The position numbers were made by a program, and so were the translations under genes. Positions 2,379 to 50,275 of a stretch of 64,000 nt of DNA are shown piece after piece (the stretch's first letter is position 1; the number at the start of each line of letters is the position of its first letter). The stretch comes from a virus. Below the pieces are notes generated by a model that had not been told where the DNA came from, did no database searches, and saw only the letters and a list, made by a program, of their open reading frames with translations. Location: positions 1 through 64,000 of the IMG/VR virus record IMGVR_UViG_3300023174_000067. One strand, 5' to 3'.

Positions 2379-5042
2379 TTATGTTTTACTACAAGAAGCT
2401 GTTGTTATTTTTTCACACAGTTGCGTACTTGGGTTATAATTATAACCGCTCGGGCAACTATAGTTAGTACAAAATCCTTGTCCATAATTAGCGCCTCCAT
2501 TTTTAAAACTACTGGTTGAGAATATAATATTTAAAGACGATATCGAGGTAGTGTTTGTTAATTGTGATAATGTATTATCGTATATTTCCGCAGCGTACCC
2601 ACCAATCGAACCAACATTTGTACATGATAACTCAATAGTATGTTGTCCTGCCGTTAATGTGACAGGATATATGTGCCAAAATTGAAAATTATATACAGGA
2701 TTTGGTGTTGTAGTTGGGTCAACTTGATTAATTATAATATTAGAATCAATTTTAATTGTACTATAATTATCACCCGCAATACCAATATAATAAGTTTTAG
2801 TAGATGGTACATTGATTGTAGAACAAAGACTTAATGTACCAGGATATGGGGGTACGTTAAGTCCCGTTGGATTACAATTGTTTCCGTTTGTAGTTCCAGG
2901 CCAACAAGGATTATTATTTGCCCATATAATACAATTATTCATTCTACCTCCCCAAAAATTTGATACCGAATTTGTTGTACCACCAGGGATTGGTGATGAG
3001 GAAGTAGCTCCGTTAAATGCATATGTTCCGCTTATTGAGTTTCCACTGACGTTATATCCGTTTACATTATAAATTAAAGTACCATATATTCCGTAGGCCC
3101 CAGTATTGGGTACTCCATCTCCAGGTGTCAACGTACTTACTACTGTTGGTGATGTTGTTTCTAATTTTTGACAAGATTGAGTTGATGTGCCGACAACAGT
3201 AAATCCTGGAGGACAATTACACGGCACTTGACAGACGTTTAAACTCGCAATCGTATTATTTTGAGGACAATCACTATATAAAATTTGTCCATTATTTCTT
3301 GTTATTCTAACCCAAGTTAAATTAGCATGAGGTGCCGCTCCACAACTATAATCATTATATGTTATCATTGCAGCTATTAAAGTTAAATTAATTGTATTCC
3401 CATTACCCGCAGCCGCAATAGATTGAGCTTGAGACTGACTAATAACTGTTCTAGTATATCTAGATTTAATAGTTCCCGCCCATGTACCTGTAATACCTGA
3501 TGGAGTATTTCTATAATCACCACATATTCGTGCACCAGATTGACTAACCGCACCTAAACTAACAGTTGACCCACTAGCATTATTATTTAATGAATCACCA
3601 ATGTACACACCATTTCCATATATTTCAAAAAACGCTCTATTACAACTGTGACCCCCTTGTCCTGGCCAAGAACTAATTGAAAGTAAATTTGGTGTTACAA
3701 CTCCATTCTCATCAACTTTTGTACGATACTGAGCAGGTAATAAATCATAATCAGCTTGTGTATCAATATATAATGTTTCAATAATTAATCCATCCAAACA
3801 AGTAACAACAGGACTACTTGGTGTTGATGGTGTTGGTGTCATAGTTAATGTTGGTGTTGGAGTAAGTGTCGGTGTTTGAGTTGGGAATATTTGTTGAATA
3901 TCAGCATCATAAGTACAATCTTTTGGTGTATAAATAGTACAGGTTGTTTGAGCACTTAAATCATACCAATAATCATAAACAGTTACATTATACGTACCAT
4001 TTGGTTGATTAAATTGTGTTTGACCTGTAAGAATATTTCCATTTGGTGTTGTCCAAAAAACATTATATGGTGCAGTTCCTCCTGTTATATTTACTGATAT
4101 AATCCCATCAAAAGCCTCAAATACTGAAGGATTTTTTACATTACATTCTATACCGAGTGGTAATATTGTAATAATTTCACAATCATTTTTAGTTTCACCT
4201 GATTCAGAAGGAGTATAACAAGGTTGACATTTTCTATCATTACAATTATTTGCTGACTGAATACCTTGAGTTATATTTAAAATATCATATTTTTCTTGAG
4301 TTCCTTTAATAACCGTATAACACTTATTTTCAGGTGCAACAACAATAGTACTTCCAACAACATAATTAATATTTTTTGTTGTATAACTAACTAATTGATA
4401 CTGTTTACCGTCACAACAACCACTAACAATATCCGAATAATTAACTGTTGTAATTGTTGGTGTTAATGTCGGAGTTCTTGTTGGAGTTATGGTTGGAGTT
4501 GGGGTTGGAGTTCTTGTTGCCGCAGGGGTTCTTGTTGGAGTTTGAGTTAAAACTGGCGGTAATGTTCTAGTTAATGTTGGTGTTGTTGTTTGAGTTGGAG
4601 TTACAGATTGTGTTGGTGTTGATGTTGGTGTTCTTGTTGGAGTTAAAGTTACGGATTGTGTTGGAGTTAAAGTCGGTGTTGTTGTAGGTGTTGGGGTTGG
4701 GGTATTTGTTGGTACTCCTTCAGTACAATCAACATAAAGAAAATTAAAGTCGCTTGATGGTGATATATTTGTAATAACAACATTATCTATATTTAACCCA
4801 AGTCCATTAGGTCCACATCCATAATCTATATTGGCATAATCATCTCCAATCCCAATAGTTATTGTTTGACCAATGAACGTAGGTGATGAGCTCCCATCAG
4901 TATATACATCGTACGTTATTGTCACCACAGAACTAGCGGGTGACGATAAAAAAAACTCAATTTGACTTAAGCTAACTCCTCCAGGAGCAAATTGACAGGA
5001 TATAAAATCTAAATTATATGTTATACAATTATTAATTGCCAT
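2379..5042 (-). CDS. Multidomain tail fibre/adhesin with Thr-Pro linkers, SprB-like repeat and PA14-like domain
   Basis: An 887-residue modular protein. Residues 1-108 are a beta-rich N-terminal domain ([13 protein letters not shown]). Residues 110-200 form a Thr-Pro linker of the [15 protein letters not shown] type. Around 290-370 there is a SprB-like repeat ([18 protein letters not shown], then GTYNVTVYD). A second short Thr-Pro linker covers about 384-414. Around 694-827 there is a segment with the layout of PA14/fibro-slime domains ([16 protein letters not shown], then [15 protein letters not shown]). The C-terminus is Cys-rich with [10 protein letters not shown], recalling short Cys-loop repeats. 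Two bases separate it from the 73-residue adaptor-like gene upstream, so the two are almost certainly co-translated. A receptor-binding or capsule-binding fibre is inferred. The exact ligand is unknown. Confidence 0.75.
4440..4713 (-). repeat. Thr-Pro linker repeat (coding)
   Basis: A degenerate repeat of roughly 6-12 bases that reads GT-rich on the plus strand (variants of gttggtgtt and gttggagtt). It encodes about 90 residues of alternating Thr and Pro with Leu, Gln, Arg or Val interruptions. The same nucleotide motif recurs in four other genes of this window. Confidence 0.9.
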
Positions 5043-5280: not shown

Positions 5281-8200
5281 TTATACAGGACAAACTCCAT
5301 TTGTTAATCTTATCTCCATAACATCAAATATACCATAAGAAACCGCAGGGAATGTCTTAATACCATTTGATGTTACTTGTATTGTATGAACTAAAACTGA
5401 ATTCTTATATAATCTAAGACAAGTAAATTGTGAATTATAATTGGTAATTGTCACTGATACAGGAAACGAATATGTTCCTGTACCTAAAGCATAATCTCCA
5501 GGAGTTGCGGGTATTGACCCTTCATTTATAGCATAAAAAGCTGGGGTAACACCATTAATTGTTGCAGTATTTCCCGCACTAACGGTATTATTAACCACAA
5601 AGGTGTTAGAACTACTACATGTACCAATATTAACCGCACCTCCAAAACTATATGGTAATTTTATACAATAATTTATTGAATCTCCACCATTAACATAAAC
5701 ACTTCTACCTATACCATCACAATCATTAAAATTAAATGTCCTACCTAATGGTCCCCCAAAAAGTTCAAACTCGGCACATCCTTGAGATACTACACTTGGG
5801 GTTGGTGTTGGACTAGAAGTTTTTGTTGGTGTAGGTGTTAACGTTGGAGTTCTCGTTAATGTTGGTGAAGGTGTTCGTGTAGGTGTTAATGTTGGTGTAT
5901 TACTTGGTGTATTACTTGGTGTATTAGTTGGTGTTACAGATTGAGTTGGTGTTTGTGTTTGTGTCGCATTTGGAGTTTTAGTTAAGGTTGGAGTTGTTGT
6001 TGGTGTTAATGTTGGTGTTGATGTAGGTCTTTGAGTTCTCGTAAGTGTTGGTGTTTGTGTTAATGTTGGTGTTGCGGTTAACGTTGGTTCAGGACTTAAA
6101 CAATTATCACAATCACTATACTGACCTAATATCGCCTTTAAGGTCGCGTTACTTGAATTATCCGATAATCCTTTGTAAGTAACACAGAAAGTACCAATAT
6201 TTGAAAAATTAACAGATAACACATCCCCAATATTCACATTATTATAACCCAACAAAGAAAAACTTTCATTTACATAATATTCATACCCAAATTCACAATC
6301 AATCAATTTTTTTGTTTTATTACATACAAAAACATCATCAAGTAAATCATATGTCGCCCCTCCATAAAAACATAAATCTCTAAGAGGTATTGTAGGTGTT
6401 GGGGTTGGTGTTAAAGTCGGTTCAGGTCCAAAAGTTGTAGCACTTAGAGTCATTGTTAAAGTACTACAATTAGATGTCGATGTCGGAGTTATTGTTGGTG
6501 TGGGCGTTGGACTATTACTCGGTGTTGGGGTTGGTGTTTGACTATTTTCAGGAAAATCACAGTTAAATAACGCATTAAAATCAACAGTATCACACGGATT
6601 ATATGTTGGTGTTGGTGTAGGTATGCAAATACCAGAAGATAATTCATCACAAAGGTCAGGACATTCAGTATTACATGGTGATTTACCAAATAATATACAA
6701 GTTCCTCCTAATGTATCAGATAAACACCATCTTGAATTATCAAAATATATATATCCGACTGTTGTTCCTCCTGTATAAAAACTATTTCCGTTATAGAATC
6801 CTGCGGTTATATAATTACCATCATACAATAATCCAGCATTTAAACAATATTCTGTTTGAGAACAACCTCCAGTACAAGAAACTGATTCACTAATAAAACA
6901 ATTATCACAATCAATGAATGGTCCTGTTACAACATTTGCCGTGTAAATATTTGTTAACGATGAATTATAGGTGATACAAGTTGCACACCCTGAAAAAATA
7001 TCCGTAGATAAATGATATATCGAATTTTCATTATAACTACCCGTATTAATTAAAACATTAAATTGGTCATATGGTGGACAACAATCTTCAAAAGAAAAAA
7101 CACACTCACCATTATCAACTAAACAATCAACACAGCTTAACAAATCATCACCATAATCATTATCCACACTAATTGCATCATAAGATGAACCAACACCAGA
7201 GTACGGTACGATTCTAACGCATCCAATAAATCCATCACACGTAATATTATATACCATATCCTCACTTAATAATCCATATTGAGAATATAAATCATCCGTA
7301 AAGTTAATAAGTAAATTTGTCCCATCACAACATTGTGTTGCTTGGTATTGACAAAATCCACTATATAACACATACCCACTCCCTCCAACATCAGAATATA
7401 CTTGTCCCCATATTGTCGGCGTATTACCTGTTGGGCCATAAAACCCATCAGCAGCTTCAGTTCCTGTTGAGCAAGGGTCAACTGAACAATATGGTGTTGA
7501 GCAAGTCCCATACATTGTTTGACCAATAGGACAATAAATTCCAAGTGAGTCCCCGAAATTAGCAAATACTAATTGTGGAGTCCCTATTACTTGTCTAGTT
7601 GAAAATAATGTACTAGCAGTAAGAGTAGAATATGTTGTAATTCCAGTTAATTGAGCCGTAGTTAATCCTGTATAAATTTCAAAAGTTGCAGTTGTACAAC
7701 AAGAAGCACTACATGGATATGTTGAAAAATTAAATACATCCGAAAAAGCGTAATCAAAAATATATTCTCCTGGTGTTAATGTTATTGGAAATACGTGATT
7801 CCAACTTATTGCATATGATTGCAAACTATTTCTCCTGTCTATAACACCATCGGCACCTATAGTATTTAAAATATTACAGTTGTTTGAATTATTAAAACTA
7901 TTATTATTTAACCTTTTAACAAACCATTCACCATTTATTTTTAATGAAAACAAATCGTCCGCAGCCAAAAATAAATGGTATTGTTGTGTTGTTGTTGCGG
8001 TCATACAAAATCTTCCACCAACCCATTGATTTAGTCCCGTTGCATACTTAATGGAACCTTTCATAAAGGCAGAATTTAATGAGTTTTTCCAAACAGTTGT
8101 TGTACCTGTTGTCAAAACACTAACAGGATTACCCGCAAGATTTGAATCATAATAACCATAAAATTGAGCAATTTGACTATGATTGGTTGGAATATTAATC

Positions 8201-8541
8201 CCAGTTCCATCATTTATTATTGCTGTTTGACCTACTGAAATTGTAACCGCACTTGTTGTTGGGTTAAATCCCGCATTATTTACAAAGGTAAATGGTTTAG
8301 GTAGTAAAGTTGTATCCGCATAGAATAATGTACCATTAGCTGGTGCTGCATTTTGGTCACCTTGTACAAATGTAATTGTTGTTCCGTTAACACCACTTAA
8401 TGGTGCCGTTTGAGTTGGAACGTTATATATTGTCGCCCCAGTTGTAAAGTCCATATCAATATAATATGGTGATGTAATTAATGAATCACACGTACCAGTT
8501 ATTGTTGGACTATAAACTAAATTAATTAAATTACAAGGCAT
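5281..8541 (-). CDS. Large modular tail fibre/adhesin with three Thr-Pro linkers and PA14-like domain
   Basis: A 1086-residue protein ([20 protein letters not shown]). Residues about 165-275 look PA14/fibro-slime-like ([17 protein letters not shown], then [19 protein letters not shown]), a fold often used to bind glycans. Residues 330-630 hold repeated Cys-containing units of the kind seen in Bacteroidota adhesins ([23 protein letters not shown], with [11 protein letters not shown] between). Thr-Pro linkers lie at about 637-687, 704-717 and 815-914. The C-terminal domain of about 170 residues ([20 protein letters not shown]) also resembles a segment after the adaptor module in the 12059-14629 fibre ([15 protein letters not shown]). 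No signal peptide or membrane helix is present. A virion fibre is inferred from composition and neighbourhood. Confidence 0.75.
5800..6095 (-). repeat. Thr-Pro linker repeat (coding)
   Basis: Encodes about 100 residues dominated by TP, LT and QT dipeptides (residues 815-914 of the protein). It shares the gttggtgtt-type nucleotide motif with the other linkers. Confidence 0.9.
6390..6630 (-). repeat. Two short Thr-Pro linker blocks (coding)
   Basis: Two shorter Thr/Pro/Ser blocks at about 6390-6430 and 6480-6630, separated by a segment containing [17 protein letters not shown]. They belong to the same family as the longer linkers. Confidence 0.8.
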
Positions 8542-8565: not shown

Positions 8566-9546
8566 TCAGTTATTTGTTTTTTTAACCAAAGATTTCATAA
8601 CTTCAACATATTTTATTGTTGAACTGTTTTTGTCAACATAATTAAAATAGTTTTCATCGTTTTTTAATTTATCTAACGGATTTTCATTTATAAATTCTCC
8701 TTTATAAAATTTAGTCGTTTTCATACTATCTATGATTCCTGCCATATGGAGTATAGGTCTCTTTTCATAAATATCAACTCCATCGGTTGCCCAAGAAAAA
8801 TTTAAATCTTCAACTATTCTTGTTTCTTTCCCTAATCTCCATAAATTCCAAAGTACTGACCACATTTCAGCAGTCCAAAATTGTATCTCACCAGGACTAA
8901 TCGGAAATCTCTTATGATAATCTTGCATTTGGTCATATAATTTGTCGGAGTCTTCATATATTTTATACCAATCTTCCCATGTCGTATTTTTAATTATATA
9001 CTGACCACCACCTGAATTTTCTTGGTTACATTTGGTACATTCAATACTGATACCAACAACGTTAGTCATTTCATAAATCAATTGATTTATTTTAGAATTT
9101 TGATGTTTTTCTTCATATCTTTTACAAACATCCATAATATAATTGTATCCAATATACCCTTTGGTATCAGCCAAATAACAAATATCATCTTTAAGATATT
9201 TGTTTAAATTAGGTAGTTCTCTAAAAATAATATCCGCATCGTGTAAAAAAAATACTTTTCCATATTCAGGAAACTCTTTTAACCATTTAGAAATTAAAAA
9301 TGGTTTAACACTTGGTATATAATATTTTTTAATTCTATCATCAGGATAAAAATGAACATTATATCCTTTATCTCTTAATTTTAACGCACCTTCCGATGGT
9401 TCAGTATTACCATTTATCATTCCAAAAATGATATGTATTTGAGAAGGTTTAATTCCTTTTTCAACAAAATTATATCCATAAATTTCGCATTGCCAATGAA
9501 AATAAGGTACATCAGGTTGTGCGGTGACAAATAATAATTCCGACAT
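8566..9546 (-). CDS. GT-A-fold glycosyltransferase (HPAT/serine-galactosyltransferase-like)
   Basis: A 326-residue soluble protein. It starts with a strand (ELLFVTAQPDVPYFHWQCEI), has a donor-binding DxD motif in FFLHDADIIF near residues 97-106, a SGGGQYIIKNT segment near 176-186 and a C-terminal W-T-A-E-M-W-S-V-L-W block followed by FSWATDGVD and a final conserved-looking His (ILHMAG). This order (DxD, GG-Q-Y, acidic W-rich block) resembles the plant and bacterial hydroxyproline O-arabinosyltransferase / peptidyl-serine galactosyltransferase group, which glycosylates repetitive Pro/Ser/Thr-rich proteins. The assignment to that group is from memory and is tentative, while the glycosyltransferase fold itself is well supported. 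It lies among fibres with Thr-Pro linkers, so a virion substrate is plausible. The start is the ATG at 9546, with an AT-rich leader. Confidence 0.65.
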   Translation of the reverse strand: MSELLFVTAQPDVPYFHWQCEIYGYNFVEKGIKPSQIHIIFGMINGNTEPSEGALKLRDKGYNVHFYPDDRIKKYYIPSVKPFLISKWLKEFPEYGKVFFLHDADIIFRELPNLNKYLKDDICYLADTKGYIGYNYIMDVCKRYEEKHQNSKINQLIYEMTNVVGISIECTKCNQENSGGGQYIIKNTTWEDWYKIYEDSDKLYDQMQDYHKRFPISPGEIQFWTAEMWSVLWNLWRLGKETRIVEDLNFSWATDGVDIYEKRPILHMAGIIDSMKTTKFYKGEFINENPLDKLKNDENYFNYVDKNSSTIKYVEVMKSLVKKTNN

Positions 9547-12058: not shown

Positions 12059-14629
12059 TTAAGGATAAATACCTCCATCGACTATTGTCCAACTATAAGT
12101 ACCTCCTGTTAATGTGTTTTTCGCAGTTTGAGCGGTAGCTCCACTATATTTTATTGCTCCAAAGTTGGCCGTAACACCCGTCTTAAGAGCCTTTGTAGAC
12201 CAAGATATAAGTAAATTATTATAATTATCAATACTATAATTTGAACTGGTTTTTCCTGTCATAAAGTTAACAAGGGTTGTTGCACTTATTGGGTTCCAAT
12301 TACTAATATCTTGATTAAATGCCGCAGCTTGATTAAACATATCACTCATACCAACCACTTTAGATACATTCCAATTACCAATAGGTTGATTAAATGAGAC
12401 TGCCGCTTGGAACATACCTGACATGTCAGTAACTCCACTTGTTGTCCATCCACTTATTGTGGTACTACCGCTATTATTAAACTGAGTTGCCGCATAAAAC
12501 ATACCATTCATATCTGTCGCCGCAGACGTATTCCAAGAACCGATATTTTGATTAAACTGATTTGCACTTTTAAATGTACCATTAAATGTTACAACTTTTG
12601 AAACATTCCAATTACCAATTGGTTGATTAAACGCACCAGCACTACTAAACATTTGTTGCATATATAACGCATTACTCATAGTCCACGCACTAATCGAGGG
12701 ATTACCTCCATTATTAAAGCTACTAGCCCCTTCAAACATACCTCTAAATTGAGAGACTCCTGATACAACCCAATTTCCTATGTTTTGATTAAACGGTGTT
12801 CCACAGAACATTCTAGCAAAACCCCCACTATAATAACTCGTATTATTGTTAACTTTTCTTGTATCCCAAGAACCTATAGGTTGATTAAATGGCGATGAAT
12901 AAAACATATGTCCCATAACAGTAACCGCAGATGTTGTCCATCCACTTATTGACGGACTTCCTCCATTATTAAATGCCGATTGGGCAAACATATAAGCAGT
13001 ACCAGTGACTTTTCTAATATCCCAAGCACCTATATTTTGATTAAATGAACTTCCCAAATAAAACATATAATTTGTACTAACACAAGCCGACATTGTCCAA
13101 GCTGAGATTGAACTACTACCTCCATTATTAAATGCATACGCCGAATTAAACATATTATCGGCATATTGTAATTTTGAAACATCCCAATTACCAATATTTT
13201 TATTAAAAGAACTTGCATTAATGAACATACTTTGAGCATTCGTTACATTTGACATCGTCCAACCGCTTAAATTATCATTAAAATTTGTTGCCGATGCAAA
13301 TGTAGACGCCATATTCGTAACTCCTGATGTATTCCACAAATTAACATTATTAATTGTTGTCAATGATGTACATGCCGAAAACGTACCTCCTAAAACAATT
13401 GTACCAGTTAAATCAAGAACATCAGTAGTTCCTGTCAATTTTAAATTACTACAACCAGCAAAATAATATCCCTGATTTGTACCAAGCCTAATTGGACCCC
13501 ATTTATCTACATGAAGTATTTTTAATTTATCTCCCGAACCATTATATTGCCAACCTGTTAAATTACCTGGTCTAGCATATATCTTAACCGTATAATCTCC
13601 CGAACTTGAATATGTATGAGTTGTTGTCGCCGCGCTCCAAACATTAATAGGGTCTATATTACCATCACCCCAATCTACAATACAGTTATAACTACCTGTA
13701 CTAATAAATGGTAGTTTTAATTGATTTGTACTTGTACTTGTAGTACCAGTATTTGTTGTCCTAAATAAAGCTTGGAAGAATGGTAATACTTCTGTTGGGG
13801 TTGGTGTTTGGGTTGGGGTATTTGATAAAGTTGGTGTTTGAGTTGGAGTATTTGATGGCGTATTTGTAGGACTTAAAGTTGGTGTTTGAGTTGGAGTATT
13901 TGTTGGAGTAGGTGTTGGTGGATTAACATAACTAAATCCATATCCTGACATTGCACAGTCACGAATAGATGTAACAGTTGGTGTTAAAGTTGGTGTTGCC
14001 GTTAATGTTGTTGTTTGAGTTGGTGTGTTAGTTGGTGGAACACTTTGAGTTAATGTAGGAGTTAGTGTAGGAGTATTTGAAGGAGTATTAGTTTGAGTTA
14101 AAGTTGGAGTATTTGTCGGTGTTAATGTCGGTGTTAATGTTGGTGTTAATGTTGGTGTATTTGTTGGCGTTAAGGTAGGTGTCGCAGTTAATGTTGGGGT
14201 TGGAGTAGGAGTTGATTCATAACAACATTCAATTAGAGTTGAATTACCATTACCAGATAGTTTTATGACACCATAATAATTTTTAACACATCTATATGTT
14301 GTAGTTGATGCACTAATATTTTCTGTTGTTGCCGTAGTATCACTACATTGAATATATTTGAAAGTTGAACCTGACAATCCTCCATACAAACTAAATTGTA
14401 AACAAGCATTATCTAAGAAGTGAATTGATTCACAATTATTACTGTCAATCATTTTAACCATTACAGTTTGAGCGAATTCAAAAATACTTGGAATTGTAAA
14501 TCCTGTTATTGGAGGAACGTTACTTGTCACAATTCCAGCAAATTGACAATTAGTATTTGAAATATCACAAACATAAACATTGTATGGTGGTGTACCCGAT
14601 ATACTTAATATTTCAAGAAATGATGACAT
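12059..14629 (-). CDS. Tail fibre with Thr-Pro linkers, PKD-like domain and BspA/DUF285 repeats
   Basis: An 856-residue modular protein. Residues 1-70 are the adaptor module shared with 5044-5265 ([14 protein letters not shown]). Residues 75-135 are a small Cys-containing domain. Thr-Pro linkers lie at about 138-218 and 235-280. A PKD-like strand with VDWGDGN is near residue 316, followed by [15 protein letters not shown]. From about residue 395 to 800 there are about 16 DUF285/BspA-type repeats of 20-25 residues ([20 protein letters not shown] type, with NMF, FN and IGNW anchors). The end ([20 protein letters not shown], then [10 protein letters not shown]) is the usual C-terminus of such repeat arrays. 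DUF285 repeats are common in bacterial surface proteins and form solenoids. A receptor-binding fibre is inferred. Confidence 0.8.
12270..13400 (-). repeat. DUF285/BspA-type repeat array (coding)
   Basis: Tandem units of about 65-80 bases, each encoding a FNQ-x-I-G-x-W ... MF pattern. Neighbouring units keep strong nucleotide similarity, for example the repeated ccaattaccaat and ggttgattaaa plus-strand stretches. This suggests recent duplication or gene conversion. Confidence 0.85.
13790..14215 (-). repeat. Thr-Pro linker repeats (coding, two blocks)
   Basis: Blocks at about 13790-13925 and 13975-14215 are separated by a short segment with [16 protein letters not shown]. They use the same gttggtgtt/gttggagta nucleotide units as the other linkers. 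Confidence 0.9.
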
Positions 14630-20296: not shown

Positions 20297-21454
20297 TTAA
20301 CTTTTAGTTTGACCTTTAAAATAAAAACTATTTGTGGCTGGTGTTCCTGGCGGTAATAACGATGTTGATGAGAAATATAAAACCCTATACGTTCCCACAG
20401 GTATCGCACCTCCTGAAGTTACTGTAACATTAGATGAACATATATTTGAATCAGGTGTTGCTAAAACATTAAATGTACATGGCGGTGACGAATAACCTAT
20501 CTGAACTGTCATACTATTTAAAACTCCTCCAACACCACTAATTGGTATCCAAACAGAATAAAAATAATATTCATTTGGGTTTATATTTGAGGTTGTTACC
20601 GTTATTGTATTAAAAGTATATTGATTGATTGAGCACCCATAAGAATCTGTACCAGAACCTGGTAATTGTCTAATGCTACCATTAAAATTAGATACGGGCG
20701 TTATAAAATTACCATCACTACCTAACGTAAATCCTGAATAAGAAATATACTTATTCATCATATAACTATAATTCGGGTCCGAATAATTTGCCCATCCTCC
20801 ACTATTATAACCATACCAATTTACATTAGTATCTACAGTAACACCATCCGATAAATAATACATATAAGACCCTAACTTATAAGCAGAACTTGTTGGTCCA
20901 GAACTATCTTGCGGTTCAGGAACTACATAAGCATAAAAAGTTCCAACGGGAGTATTTGTTAATGTTGGTGTATTAGTTGGAGTACGAGTTGGAGTACGAG
21001 TTGGAGTATTCGATGGTGTATTAGTTTGCGTTAAAGTATTTGTCGGAGTATTTGTCGGAGTGTTAGTTGGAGTATTTGTCTGACTTAATGTTGGAGTTTG
21101 GGTTAAAGTAGGTGTTTGAGTCTGAGTCAGTCCTGGTGTTTGAGTTAATGTCGGAGTTTGTGTTAATGTAGGTGTATGTGTTGGAGTTTTGGTTAATGTT
21201 GGAGTTTGAGTTTGAGTAGGTGTTAGAGTAGGTGTTTGAGTTAATGTCGGAGTTAATGTTGGTGTTTGAGTTAATGTCGGAGTTTGTGTTAATGTAGGTG
21301 TAGTTGTTGGTGTTGTCTCAACACAATTATAAACATTTTTTATTTCACAATTATCGGCATCAATTATTTTTATTAAAATTGCAGGAGCATTTGTGAATCC
21401 GCTAGGTATTGGTAATACGATTGCAGGTGGTACCGATGTTGTGATTCCTGACAT
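20297..21454 (-). CDS. Fibre protein with adaptor module and long Thr-Pro linker; start codon problem
   Basis: From the first ATG (21454) there are 385 residues: the tail of the adaptor module ([15 protein letters not shown]), a Thr-Pro linker over residues 47-170, and a distal beta-rich domain of about 210 residues ([20 protein letters not shown] onwards). In the same frame, upstream of this ATG, the rest of the adaptor module is intact ([19 protein letters not shown]). It extends to a TAA just before 21544 but contains no ATG, GTG or TTG. The homologous genes begin about there, and the codon where an ATG is expected (21544-21542) reads ATC. Either translation starts at a rare codon, or the start was lost by mutation or a sequence error. 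The true gene probably spans 20297-21544. Confidence 0.75.
20945..21315 (-). repeat. Thr-Pro linker repeat (coding), longest block
   Basis: About 124 residues of [13 protein letters not shown]-type sequence, the longest linker in the window. The nucleotide units gttaatgtcggagttt and gttggagta recur with few changes. Confidence 0.9.
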
Positions 21455-21556: not shown

Positions 21557-24500
21557 TTAATATAGTGTTAATGATACTCCGTATCCTCCAGGTGTCGCTC
21601 CTGATAATTTAGTTCTTGCCAATTGTGATGCGGTTGATGCGGTACCCACTAGTATTATTTTAGAACTTCCAAATCTTGTACTATACGACCAAGTAGTTCC
21701 TGTTAAATCATTCATTAAATTATCAATTTCAGTAGTTGTAAAGTAATTAGTCGCCGATAATGAAGGAACAATATTTAGATAGTTCATATTTGGAGCCCAA
21801 ATTCTTCCCGCAGTATAATCTTTTATTGTGTGCGTACCTGTTAAACTTATATACCAAGCATTAGGTGGTAGATTAGAAATATCACCAGTTAGACTATTTA
21901 AACCACCAACAACAAGTACCTTAATATTACTTGGGAAAGTACTTGTATTTCCTGATAATTTATTATATCCACCTAAGAAAAAGTCCGAAACATTTACACA
22001 AATATCAGATGATTGACCTGAAACAGTATTTAAACCTGTTAAATTAAAATATTGGGTCGTACCACCAATTGTTGAACCTGTTGGCATATTAACAATATTA
22101 CCATAAATTGAATTACTACCTCTAAGTTCTAAAGTATTTAATTTTTTTGGTAAGTTATTTATGTCGCCTGTAATTGTATTAGTAGTTGGTGAAGAGTCTA
22201 TATTAGCGACAACCAATGTTCGTAATAAAGTATGTGCTGATAATGATAAAACATTACCACTTAAATAATTATACCCATAGGCAACAAATGAACTTCCACT
22301 AATAGGTATATTTGATATATTACCATTTAAACTATTATACCCATATATATAAAAATTAGTAATTCCTGAAGGAATATTTACTGTATCACCCGATATAGTA
22401 TTGTTACCCCATATACCAAAGAATGTTAATCCAGATGGTATATCTTTAATATCACCTTTAATCGTGTTTGTTCCACCATTAATATAAATTGATGTCATTC
22501 CTGATGGGAAATTTATAGTATTACCACTTAAATCATTTGTCTCACCTCCTCCTAACGTTATTGATGTTAATGTGTTTGGTAAGTTGTCAATATCTCCTCT
22601 TAATTTACCTTTTAAACTATAAAAAGTTTGCATTGTTCTTGGGATTTCAGATGTATATCCTGTAAATATTGAATTAACATTTGACAATAATGTCATCCCT
22701 GTTAGTTTAGATAATTCCGAACCTGTAATTAACATAGATGCATTTGTACCTCCTGTTCCTATTCCTGAATCAGTGTACAATCTTCTTACTGACCCTAAAT
22801 TATAAGATAAAAGTTTAACATCTCCACTGAAAGCACTGCCTGTATATGTATGAATTAATGAAGTACTAAGACCTGAAGGATAATTTGTTGACGTACCGTC
22901 TCCCCAAGACATGGTATAGGCCGAGATAGTGTCAACAATATGTAATCTAACCGAATTTAAATCATTAACTTTTAATGTGAAACTTTCATACAAAGAATAA
23001 GATGTTGATGCCGTACAATTAGGTAATGACGTATCAGTAACTGTTACAGTATAAAGTCCAGGATTTAATCCACCAATAACTCTTGTTGTTTGCCCACCTG
23101 GTGACCACAAATATGTCACAGCGCCATAATTACCTGTTGTTGTTGCGGTTATACTACCATCACTAACCCCGTAAGTCGGATTCGTACCACTTAAAGATAC
23201 TTGTACTAAACAAGGTGGTCGTGTTCTTGTAGGAGTTGGGGTTGGGGTTTTTGTAGGAGTTGGGGTTGGGGTTTTTGTAGGAGTTATCGATGGTGTTGGA
23301 GTTGGGGTTAGTAACACACAATTACCCGAATTTTCAGGAATTGTATTAAAAACTAAATATCCACTGTTATCCACCCATGACCCAATTGGATTTCCATATC
23401 TAAAAATATTTCCTTTTGCACAAGGTGGTGTTAAACCAGATGTTTCCCATCTATTAGTAACATCATTAAAAAATATTGTTATTGTACAACCTAATGTGTA
23501 TATCGTTCCTTGCCATGCAGGATAACCATTTATTACCGCATATGTTGTAAAAAGTATTTGTGTTGGAGTAATTGCTTCAATTACAAATGACGCCAATAGA
23601 CAATCAGGAAAATTCTCACAACATATGTCATAATCAACTTCAACTTTAATTGTAACTTCCTTATCACCTAAAACAAAAGTACAATCAGTATTTAAATTTA
23701 ATAAATTAGAATTTAGATTAGCAATTATTGAACCCATATTTGGTACGGTATCCAATAAAGCAGTTAATGCATCAACATATTCTTGGTCTGTCGGATAATT
23801 TAATAATGATGTTGTTGTATAAAAATTACTAGTATACGCCGTTCCTCCAACATTTAATAAAATTATAAAGTCAGCACTATTTAAAACACAATTAATATTT
23901 CCTTTAGTTAACTCATAATAACCTTGATTTAACATTTGAGAAAATCCTAATTTACTTGATGGTGTATCTGTAAAAACATTTTTACAAACATTAAATAACT
24001 CATATGACGTGTTTCTACTACTACAACTTATAATTGTTTGTGTTTTCGCAGAACATCCTAAAGCATCAGTAACACTTAAACTATAGGTTCCTCCAGTTAA
24101 ACCATAAACATAAACTCCTGTTTGACCATTAACATTTGGAGACCAATTTAAAGTTAAAGGTGAAACTCCTCCTGTTATCAACGCATTTATTGTCCCATCA
24201 CTACCATTACCACATCCTGTATTTGTTAAAATAACATTAAGATTAGTACTTGAACCAACTGATAATTGAGTTGTTTGTACACAACCATTTTGATTTCTAA
24301 TAGTCGCAGTATATAAACCCGCATTTAATCCACTGAAAGTGACCGAAGTATTTGTTGTATTTAATTGTTGTCCATTTATTTGATAAGAATACGAACCTGG
24401 AGTATCAACGGTTAAAGTAATCTTTCCATTAGGTAGTCCACAAGTTGTATTAACTGATGTCGCAGTAAAATCATACTGACTATTATTTAAAAGTGTTGCG

Positions 24501-25726
24501 TTTGTTTGATATTGACAACCACTAGGATTTGTAACACTAACCTGATAAGTTCCTGGAGATAAACCAATAAATGTTAAATTTGGTGATGGAGTTCCACTTG
24601 TTCTTATATTACCCAAACTATCAGTTAGTGTGTAAGTATAAGGTGTTGCACCACCAATAACACTAACAGTAATACTACCATCATTAGCCCCACATGTGGT
24701 TGAATTAGTTGTCACACCTATAACTGAAAATGTATTTGGAGTGGATAACGTTGTTGTTCCACTAGTTGTACATAACCCAGCATCAGTAATATTTAAAATA
24801 TAAGAACCAGCACTTAATCCAGTGAATGTAGGATTAGTTGAATACGTAACTTGACTATCTCCATTAGATAAAGCACAGTAATATGGTCCACTACCTCCGC
24901 TTAAAACCGCCGTTATTTGACCATTTGATTGAAAGCATCCAGGTTGACCTAAAACAAACGAAACAATACCTACAGGCAGTACATTATTTATTGTTGCATT
25001 TTTTGATTTTACACAACCACTACTATCTGTAACAGTAACTGAATATGTTCCCGCCGTTAAACCACTAATTGATGATGTGGTTTCTCCATTATTTGCCCAC
25101 AAATAAGTATAGGGTGGAGTACCTGTTTGTCCTGTAATATATAATTTTCCCGTATGTCCTAAACAATTCGAATCTTCAATAACAAAGAACCCATAATCAA
25201 AAGTATCTGATGACTTTATTATACAAGTAGCCGTACTACCTGAACAACCTCCGTTATCAAAACACTCAACATAGTAAGTATCCGCACTTAAATTATTAAA
25301 GATTTGAGACCCATTTCCTGTACTAGCGGAAGTTACAAATCCATTTGTTAAACTATATAAATTATAACTAACGGGACTATTTAATGTTGTTGCAGTAACA
25401 ATCAAAATACCATTAGAGTCATTACATGTAGTATTAATCGAAGATGTCGTTAAACATATACCTGAAGATATAAATAAGTTTACATATAATTGTTGATTTG
25501 GAAACGTTGTTGAGTCAGTAATTAAAATTTGATATGTTCCCGCAGATAATCCTGTCCTAATTGAACTATCCCCATAAGGAACAGTTGTGTCTACCCCTAA
25601 ATTTGGACTATACCATTCTACCGTATATATTGAATTTGAACCTCCATTAGGATATAAATCCAAAACACCAGATGAACTATTTTGACAGTCACCTGTTATT
25701 AATAAATTATAATTTAGTAATGCCAT
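21557..25726 (-). CDS. Giant adhesin-like fibre with SprB repeats, Thr-Pro linker and GDI-type solenoid
   Basis: A 1389-residue protein. Residues about 1-565 contain seven or more SprB-type repeats (GTPPYTYLWANNGETTSSIS, then GLTAGTYSVTVTDSSGC), known from the gliding adhesin SprB of flavobacteria. Residues 566-800 are two non-repeated domains, including EVTIKVEVDYDICCENFPDC. A Thr-Pro linker lies at 804-837 and is followed by another SprB-type unit. Near residue 937 a PKD-like WGDG strand begins a 450-residue region of about 20-residue units (I-x-G-D-I-x-N-L/I-P-x-G-L-T). This resembles a leucine-rich-repeat-like solenoid. Its ATG overlaps the upstream stop (TAATG), so translation is probably coupled. 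A host- or matrix-binding fibre is inferred. Confidence 0.8.
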   Translation of the reverse strand: MALLNYNLLITGDCQNSSSGVLDLYPNGGSNSIYTVEWYSPNLGVDTTVPYGDSSIRTGLSAGTYQILITDSTTFPNQQLYVNLFISSGICLTTSSINTTCNDSNGILIVTATTLNSPVSYNLYSLTNGFVTSASTGNGSQIFNNLSADTYYVECFDNGGCSGSTATCIIKSSDTFDYGFFVIEDSNCLGHTGKLYITGQTGTPPYTYLWANNGETTSSISGLTAGTYSVTVTDSSGCVKSKNATINNVLPVGIVSFVLGQPGCFQSNGQITAVLSGGSGPYYCALSNGDSQVTYSTNPTFTGLSAGSYILNITDAGLCTTSGTTTLSTPNTFSVIGVTTNSTTCGANDGSITVSVIGGATPYTYTLTDSLGNIRTSGTPSPNLTFIGLSPGTYQVSVTNPSGCQYQTNATLLNNSQYDFTATSVNTTCGLPNGKITLTVDTPGSYSYQINGQQLNTTNTSVTFSGLNAGLYTATIRNQNGCVQTTQLSVGSSTNLNVILTNTGCGNGSDGTINALITGGVSPLTLNWSPNVNGQTGVYVYGLTGGTYSLSVTDALGCSAKTQTIISCSSRNTSYELFNVCKNVFTDTPSSKLGFSQMLNQGYYELTKGNINCVLNSADFIILLNVGGTAYTSNFYTTTSLLNYPTDQEYVDALTALLDTVPNMGSIIANLNSNLLNLNTDCTFVLGDKEVTIKVEVDYDICCENFPDCLLASFVIEAITPTQILFTTYAVINGYPAWQGTIYTLGCTITIFFNDVTNRWETSGLTPPCAKGNIFRYGNPIGSWVDNSGYLVFNTIPENSGNCVLLTPTPTPSITPTKTPTPTPTKTPTPTPTRTRPPCLVQVSLSGTNPTYGVSDGSITATTTGNYGAVTYLWSPGGQTTRVIGGLNPGLYTVTVTDTSLPNCTASTSYSLYESFTLKVNDLNSVRLHIVDTISAYTMSWGDGTSTNYPSGLSTSLIHTYTGSAFSGDVKLLSYNLGSVRRLYTDSGIGTGGTNASMLITGSELSKLTGMTLLSNVNSIFTGYTSEIPRTMQTFYSLKGKLRGDIDNLPNTLTSITLGGGETNDLSGNTINFPSGMTSIYINGGTNTIKGDIKDIPSGLTFFGIWGNNTISGDTVNIPSGITNFYIYGYNSLNGNISNIPISGSSFVAYGYNYLSGNVLSLSAHTLLRTLVVANIDSSPTTNTITGDINNLPKKLNTLELRGSNSIYGNIVNMPTGSTIGGTTQYFNLTGLNTVSGQSSDICVNVSDFFLGGYNKLSGNTSTFPSNIKVLVVGGLNSLTGDISNLPPNAWYISLTGTHTIKDYTAGRIWAPNMNYLNIVPSLSATNYFTTTEIDNLMNDLTGTTWSYSTRFGSSKIILVGTASTASQLARTKLSGATPGGYGVSLTLY
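23215..23315 (-). repeat. Thr-Pro linker repeat (coding)
   Basis: A short block encoding about 34 residues of TPTPTKTPTPTP type, with near-identical 24-base units (gttggggtttttgtaggagt on the plus strand). Confidence 0.85.
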
Positions 25727-49491: not shown

Positions 49492-49580
49492 ATCCCACAA
49501 ATTAATTTTGTAAGGATTATTAGTGTTGCGGCAGTTGATACAACAATAAACTCAAAATTAATATCTACTTTTTTTTTCAT
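49488..49580 (-). CDS. 30-residue single-span membrane peptide
   Basis: An ATG at 49580 overlaps the glycosyltransferase stop (ATGA), and its own TGA at 49488-49490 overlaps the phosphoesterase ATG in the same way. The 30-residue product begins MKKKVDINFEF and continues with a hydrophobic segment IVVSTAATLIILTKLICGI. It has the Lys-rich start and single hydrophobic helix of a membrane peptide. The double ATGA overlap is good support that it is translated. Function is unknown. Membrane anchoring or interaction with its two coupled neighbours is inferred. Confidence 0.65.
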   Translation of the reverse strand: MKKKVDINFEFIVVSTAATLIILTKLICGI

Positions 49581-50275
49581 ATCCAATAATTAAAATCCTG
49601 TTTAAAAAACTCATCGTTATTCCTATTCCACCAACACATAACCATAAGTTTTATCATATACCATAAACCTTTTTTCTCAAATCTTCTAGAAGGAGTATAA
49701 ACAAAAAGATTCTCCACTCTAAATTTATTTGGTACAATCTTAGAACTAAGATGGTAGTCCTCGGCAATTTTATCTTCATTATTAAATCCATTTAATTTAT
49801 TAAAGGTGTCGGTCTTAAACAACATAAATCCACCTAAAGCAAATGGTGTTGTTTTTGAACTAAACCATTGTATAACATTAAATATTTTATAAATCCAATC
49901 AAACTTACCATCTATTGTTTTAAACTTACAGGTCATCAAATCATACCTTCCTATTATCATTTTATTCAAACATTTAACAATTAAATCATCTTGTTTAATA
50001 TGAATATCCGCATCCAAAAATAAAACATAAGGCGTCTTGACTAACTCAGCTCCTTTGTTTCTAGCAACTGATGGTAATCCACCACTAATTATCTTTATCT
50101 GTTCTTTATATTTTTCTTGGAATTCATTAAGTAAAATAATACTTTCTTTATCAGTAGATGAGTCCGCAATAATTATTTTGAACTTTTCGGTTTGACTTAA
50201 AATAAAAATGAGGGTCTCAATTATAAGAGAACCCTCATTTTTACAAGGTATCACTATTGTAATATTTTTATTCAT
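49577..50275 (-). CDS. GT2 family glycosyltransferase
   Basis: A 232-residue protein (MNKNITIVIPCKNEGSLIIE), the classic GT2 opening. The donor-binding motif is YVLFLDADIHI near residues 87-97. PFALGGFMLFKTDTFNKLNG and AEDYHLS follow, the latter with the ED pair typical of the catalytic region. An aromatic, Lys-flanked segment near the C-terminus (WYMIKLMVMCWWNR) could lie on the membrane. Length is short for GT2 (no extra C-terminal domain). Its stop overlaps the start of a membrane peptide, and an LpxH-like phosphoesterase follows, so an envelope or lipopolysaccharide substrate is possible. The first 24 codons contain a strong terminator-like hairpin. Confidence 0.82.
   Translation of the reverse strand: MNKNITIVIPCKNEGSLIIETLIFILSQTEKFKIIIADSSTDKESIILLNEFQEKYKEQIKIISGGLPSVARNKGAELVKTPYVLFLDADIHIKQDDLIVKCLNKMIIGRYDLMTCKFKTIDGKFDWIYKIFNVIQWFSSKTTPFALGGFMLFKTDTFNKLNGFNNEDKIAEDYHLSSKIVPNKFRVENLFVYTPSRRFEKKGLWYMIKLMVMCWWNRNNDEFFKQDFNYWI
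50204..50242 (-). other. Strong terminator-like hairpin inside the GT2 coding start
   Basis: A 12-bp perfect stem (AAAAATGAGGGT / ACCCTCATTTTT), extended by three more pairs after a single-base bulge and followed on the minus strand by ATTTTAA. It covers codons 12-24 of the glycosyltransferase. It has the form of an intrinsic terminator or attenuator but is fully coding. Confidence 0.6.

Follow-up and report, generated by a model that had tools for sequence, protein, structure and literature searches.

Organization of the locus

The window, the whole stretch of 64,000 nucleotides analyzed here, covers the first part of a virus record (IMGVR_UViG_3300023174_000067) of 134,633 bases, which carries contractile-tail genes and has its tail sheath beyond the window. 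An open reading frame (ORF) on the minus strand (8566-9546, ATG start) encodes a protein of 326 amino acids with the motif FLHDADIIF at residues 100-108. The gene is one of a series of long ORFs on the same strand, and baseplate genes (gp25, Baseplate_J) are found further along. The original prediction described a DxD glycosyltransferase with this motif among five ORFs with Thr-Pro linkers. All of these are present in the sequence: Thr/Pro-rich stretches in the window fall in exactly the five ORFs named, and the linker coordinates agree within ~60 bases, with one extra patch at 3771-3917. The long alternating TP runs are directly visible in the linker sequences; composition alone is able to satisfy the loose Thr/Pro window test, since, when each protein is shuffled, some such window still arises in 192 of 1000 shuffles. 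The features of the locus are the following:

2379..5042, minus strand: fiber-like ORF with Thr-Pro linkers at 3771-3917 and 4419-4763; candidate acceptor
5281..8541, minus strand: fiber-like ORF directly downstream of the enzyme gene, with Thr-Pro linkers at 5761-6102 and 6367-6570; candidate acceptor
8566..9546, minus strand: predicted PHROG 4417 glycosyltransferase, 326 aa, GT-A fold (profile E 4e-62; pLDDT 96.4, pTM 0.93; UGGT E 1e-6, glycogenin E 1e-5)
8746..8748, minus strand: H267, invariant C-terminal His in the 31-homolog alignment; putative metal ligand
8860..8871, minus strand: A226-E227-M228-W229 at an xED-like position; A, M and W invariant, residue 227 E or D
9232..9240, minus strand: D103-A-D105, putative DxD metal/nucleotide-sugar motif; both Asp invariant in 31 homologs
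12059..14629, minus strand: fiber-like ORF (DUF285 repeats) with Thr-Pro linkers at 13757-13954 and 13970-14242; candidate acceptor
20297..21454, minus strand: fiber-like ORF with Thr-Pro linkers at 20912-21079 and 21131-21319; candidate acceptor
21557..25726, minus strand: SprB-repeat fiber-like ORF with a Thr-Pro linker at 23165-23353; candidate acceptor
49577..50275, minus strand: second glycosyltransferase of the window, GT2 (PF00535, E 3e-16); may extend the glycan

In the ORF at 12059-14629 the DUF285 repeats, which are of the Mycoplasma type, are joined to the Thr-Pro linkers. The SprB repeats at 21557-25726 are of the Flavobacterium gliding adhesin type, which hints at a Bacteroidota host.

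Further along the record, a second array of Thr-Pro fiber genes (85922-100003) harbors a PF11397 GlcNAc transferase (E 8e-72), lying between fiber genes, as well as an HtrL/YibB protein and a GT34-like protein. It is followed at 102659-115513 by a GT2 enzyme, a weak group-1 glycosyltransferase, FkbM, TylF and a fusion of HAD and nucleotidyltransferase domains. This large glycosyltransferase repertoire (loci L519 and L520, 85922-115513) is possibly a second virion-glycosylation block, and the virion of the window's phage may possibly bear a multi-sugar glycan.

Family membership and predicted fold

Searches of Pfam, NCBIfam and PDB sequences returned no relative of the 326-residue protein. Its sole match was PHROG 4417 (E 4.4e-62, residues 6-320 aligned to positions 3-291 of the 293 in the profile), to which it therefore belongs; the entry is named "prophage pi2 protein 34" and its function is listed as unknown. 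Pfam gave no family for the window protein at E ≤ 1 and chance-level matches only for its relatives; no GT8 or GT24 sequence profile was matched, and the likeness to these enzymes is one of fold. Weak matches to HopBF1 and to TAL effectors from the sequence searches look like chance and were discarded.

The AlphaFold2 model (pLDDT 96.4, pTM 0.93) yielded 197 Foldseek matches in the PDB at E ≤ 0.001. The 50 matches listed are all glycosyltransferases or a sugar-phosphate transferase, mostly of GT8, GT24 and other GT-A types. The nearest solved folds are the catalytic domain of UGGT (GT24, E 1e-6), then glycogenin (E 1e-5) and XXYLT1 (both GT8), at modest TM-scores, mostly 0.4-0.57. In the viral structure library, two close relatives with uninformative names head the list, followed by GT8-type proteins. 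GT-A enzymes generally possess a DxD motif plus a metal-binding C-terminal His. In an alignment of 31 diverse homologs (25-69% identity to the window protein), D103, D105, G180, Q182, W224, A226, M228, W229 and H267 are invariant, so that a GxQ motif (G180, Q182) accompanies the DxD and the His, the putative metal ligands. Because its structural neighbors are GT-A glycosyltransferases and the DxD and His are invariant, the protein is, by its predicted fold, a GT-A enzyme of a family without other annotation. The DxD glycosyltransferase call is thereby upheld. The kinship that had been proposed with the hydroxyproline O-arabinosyltransferase and peptidyl-serine galactosyltransferase group finds no support, as Pfam gives no match and the closest solved structures belong to GT24 and GT8 enzymes.

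Relatives of the enzyme were found in 206 IMG/VR stretches (the best 80 of the 206 at 62-74% identity) and in at least 74 named phages. The hosts of these 74 are mostly Lactobacillus, Enterococcus, Staphylococcus and Lactococcus, with one Arcanobacterium and one Chryseobacterium; PHROG 4417 spans phages of Firmicutes, Arcanobacterium and Chryseobacterium together with uncultured aquatic phages. No relative turned up in a scan of bacterial genomes with the window-type alignment.

Thr-rich stretches in relatives of the window's phage

In 77 of 80 loci of the window-type group, the enzyme has a Thr-rich gene at most two genes away, compared with 134 Thr-rich genes among the 731 other genes of those loci. 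Chryseobacterium-type relatives often carry, at many loci, an internal poly-Thr linker (PTTTTTTTIAPTTTTTTT) in the fiber just upstream.

Thr-Pro linkers behave differently from poly-Thr. Although TPTPT codon runs occur in 17 of 17 large enzyme-bearing records, long contigs picked solely for TPTPTLTPT encode the enzyme in just 2 of 26 cases and lack it in the other 24; one enzyme-lacking relative with such linkers is G016. Since most Thr-Pro linkers occur without the enzyme, the linkers alone need no such enzyme, and the survey of related phages speaks against the pairing that had been foreseen; a partnership confined to Thr-Pro linkers was rejected for this reason. Runs of (ACN)6, which in frame would encode poly-Thr, separate enzyme-bearing from enzyme-lacking records better (25/26 vs. 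7/28, p 4e-8). Both the ACN and the TPTPT runs were counted without a frame check, in records of which several are near-identical and the counts hence not independent, and the argument therefore rests on protein-level tests. G081, a divergent enzyme-bearing record, is without a poly-Thr run. As a separate observation, the sequence of G016 (L371:775-6848) contains low-complexity repeats and long open frames on both strands.

The tail sheath of the window's phage (record 68716-72054, ~59 kb from the enzyme) contains a poly-Thr insert (KTTTTTTSTTTTTTQSNPCVTTSTTSPYTTTTTTQP). When sheaths are aligned, a Thr-rich insert at this site is present in 16 of 17 enzyme-bearing and 3 of 13 enzyme-lacking records; with near-identical records among them, these counts too are not independent. 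The three exceptions among the latter measure 86-95 kb and are possibly incomplete fragments. The enzyme-bearing record without the insert (G039) has poly-Thr codons adjoining its enzyme. Poly-Thr and Thr-Pro interchange at the sheath site, and the enzyme-bearing G038 has Thr-Pro only; this suggests that Thr-Pro may also be an acceptor, but not the diagnostic one.

Poly-Thr tails beside the enzyme gene in Gram-positive phages

In phages of Gram-positive hosts the enzyme gene immediately follows a major structural gene. In phiFL1A and PMBT8 this gene encodes the major tail protein, in 4995_1 the major capsid protein, and in 1706 the "major structural protein" (with P1046 showing the same position). 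One small gene intervenes between the structural gene (major tail or capsid) and the enzyme in TPWB06 and PLE3. The neighbor protein carries poly-threonine in 1706 (...GVTTTTTTTTTTHHD) and in phiFL1A (...GTTTTTSTTTTTTSSTTTTTTTQASSK). In 18 of 26 non-redundant Firmicutes loci, 12 residues of the upstream neighbor include 7 or more Thr, whereas any other position reaches 0-2 loci. In each of the ten isolates read, either a virion protein or a gene near the enzyme bears poly-Thr; in PMBT8 it is on a short tail-protein ORF, and in Lactobacillus plantarum phage Bacchae the tagged genes beside the enzyme lack annotation. Firmicutes members of the family have poly-Thr and no Thr-Pro linker. The tag also occurs on non-adjacent proteins, namely capsid and tail of 1706 and two or three proteins of Bacillaceae prophages. 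A search of the freely accessible literature for poly-threonine phage proteins gave nothing relevant. In Staphylococcus phage PMBT8 (L257:117-4545), the short ORF with poly-Thr at its end is immediately preceded by several endonuclease-like ORFs that lie among the structural genes.

For an unselected comparison, three structural-protein families were collected regardless of the enzyme, with queries trimmed ahead of the tail: the phiFL major tail protein, the PLE3-type capsid protein and the phi13-type tail protein of Bacillaceae prophages. Tail and enzyme are both present at 35 loci and both absent at 56, and no locus is discordant (29, 40 and 0 for the phiFL and PLE3-type families together; 6, 16 and 0 for the phi13-type family). 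The Fisher p of 5e-26 overstates the evidence, because the loci are not independent and many are near-duplicates. Parsimony on the core trees requires at least 2, 3 and 5 changes in the three families, pointing to about ten (at least 10) independent joint switches of tail and enzyme. In the capsid family, homology between L315 and L318 ends at the last core codon and restarts past the enzyme gene, so that tail and enzyme form one cassette. The capsid cores of L346, with tail and enzyme, and L347, without them, are 99.7% identical.

Proposed function and alternative explanations

The gene at 8566-9546 very likely encodes a metal-dependent GT-A enzyme that glycosylates Thr in low-complexity Thr-rich stretches on the phage's own virion proteins. 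Candidate acceptors in this phage would be the poly-Thr insert of the tail sheath together with the Thr-rich and Thr-Pro linkers of the surrounding fibers. The acceptor may be a portable tag, C-terminal on the capsid and tail-tube proteins of Gram-positive phages and internal in the sheath and fibers of the window's phage. The predicted fold, the conserved motifs, the position of the gene and the co-occurrence are what the sequences show; catalysis, metal dependence and O-linkage to Thr are steps that we infer. The enzyme would add the first sugar or extend one, and other glycosyltransferases of the record could do the extending. Speculatively, a hydrophilic coat could keep the linkers extended or shield the particle from antibodies, proteases or wrong adsorption.

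Comparative genomics lends good support to a phage that would glycosylate its own Thr-rich virion stretches. As a phage virion glycosylation system would have it, the enzyme gene is linked to structural genes bearing an acceptor-like stretch. The idea that the phage glycosylates its own fiber linkers thus survives in part: the enzyme is genetically tied to Thr-rich stretches of the virion, while the narrow pairing with Thr-Pro does not hold. Judged from sequence comparison, the family-wide partner of the enzyme is poly-threonine on capsid, tail and fiber proteins, of which Thr-Pro is at most one form. Phages with a PHROG 4417 enzyme very probably sugar-coat their particles through an undescribed enzyme family. 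The broader picture is likely as well: PHROG 4417 would represent a widespread, modular system of virion O-glycosylation, in which unrelated phages acquire and lose, as one unit, a poly-Thr or Thr-Pro tag on any exposed virion protein and the one dedicated transferase that recognizes it.

It appears rather unlikely that the enzyme merely extends a glycan begun on the Thr-rich stretch by another phage or host enzyme. GT8-type enzymes commonly extend glycans, and the record encodes many other glycosyltransferases, including the PF11397 enzyme within the second linker array. However, temperate phages of ~40 kb carry the two-part cassette of tail and enzyme with no second annotated transferase adjoining, which favors initiation.

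Dedication of the enzyme to mucin-like Thr-Pro fiber linkers, akin to the plant Hyp/Ser glycosyltransferases, is improbable. The position of the gene inside a Thr-Pro fiber array, the codon runs of its large enzyme-bearing relatives and the swap at the homologous sheath site, with Thr-Pro alone in G038, would fit it. The many Thr-Pro contigs that lack the enzyme, the Firmicutes members with poly-Thr in place of Thr-Pro and the want of a Pfam match argue otherwise.

Tail and enzyme could also have been swapped together as adjoining genes with no functional tie, as their single contiguous cassette in the capsid family would allow. Simple hitch-hiking of this kind is very improbable, since tags also occur on proteins not adjacent to the enzyme (1706, the Bacillaceae prophages, the sheath ~59 kb away), and the link holds across unrelated phages.

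Modification of phage DNA, considered on account of VPE25 and then set aside, or of host wall or LPS polymers for superinfection exclusion, is hardly credible: such roles are known for other phage glycosyltransferases, but VPE25, whose DNA is reported to be glycosylated, reportedly has a separate beta-glucosyltransferase for it (PMC4999554), and it would be left unexplained why structural proteins gain their poly-Thr tails strictly together with the enzyme.

Comparison with known systems

If glycosylation of Thr-rich virion stretches is indeed the role of the enzyme, a function would be gained for a protein family of at least 74 named phages and 206 IMG/VR stretches, and the otherwise puzzling poly-Thr at the ends of major capsid and tail proteins would be accounted for. 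Virion glycosylation would become predictable from sequence and testable in cultured phages (Lactococcus 1706 and P1046, Lactobacillus plantarum Bacchae). Poly-Thr tails adjoining the enzyme gene could be used for annotating both tail and gene, and a short peptide tag paired with its own enzyme suggests itself as a means of glycosylating proteins.

The protein is a direct member of PHROG 4417, and a function is proposed here for a family listed as unknown. The GT-A fold is common to the protein, the catalytic domain of UGGT (GT24) and glycogenin and XXYLT1 (GT8); at ~10% identity and TM-scores of 0.4-0.57 there is no sequence-level relation, and the protein is assigned to neither family. Plant HPAT (GT95) and SGT (GT96) enzymes would likewise have a Pro/Ser/Thr-rich protein as substrate, and the Pfam search gave no match to them. 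Virion glycosylation is known in mycobacteriophages (Freeman et al., 2023, Cell Host Microbe, cited in PMC12619734). Compared with that system, as far as the citing paper describes it (PMC12619734), the present one involves the PHROG 4417 family and poly-Thr or Thr-rich acceptors that are portable between proteins; what appears to be new is an enzyme family with a recognizable, portable acceptor tag across unrelated phages.
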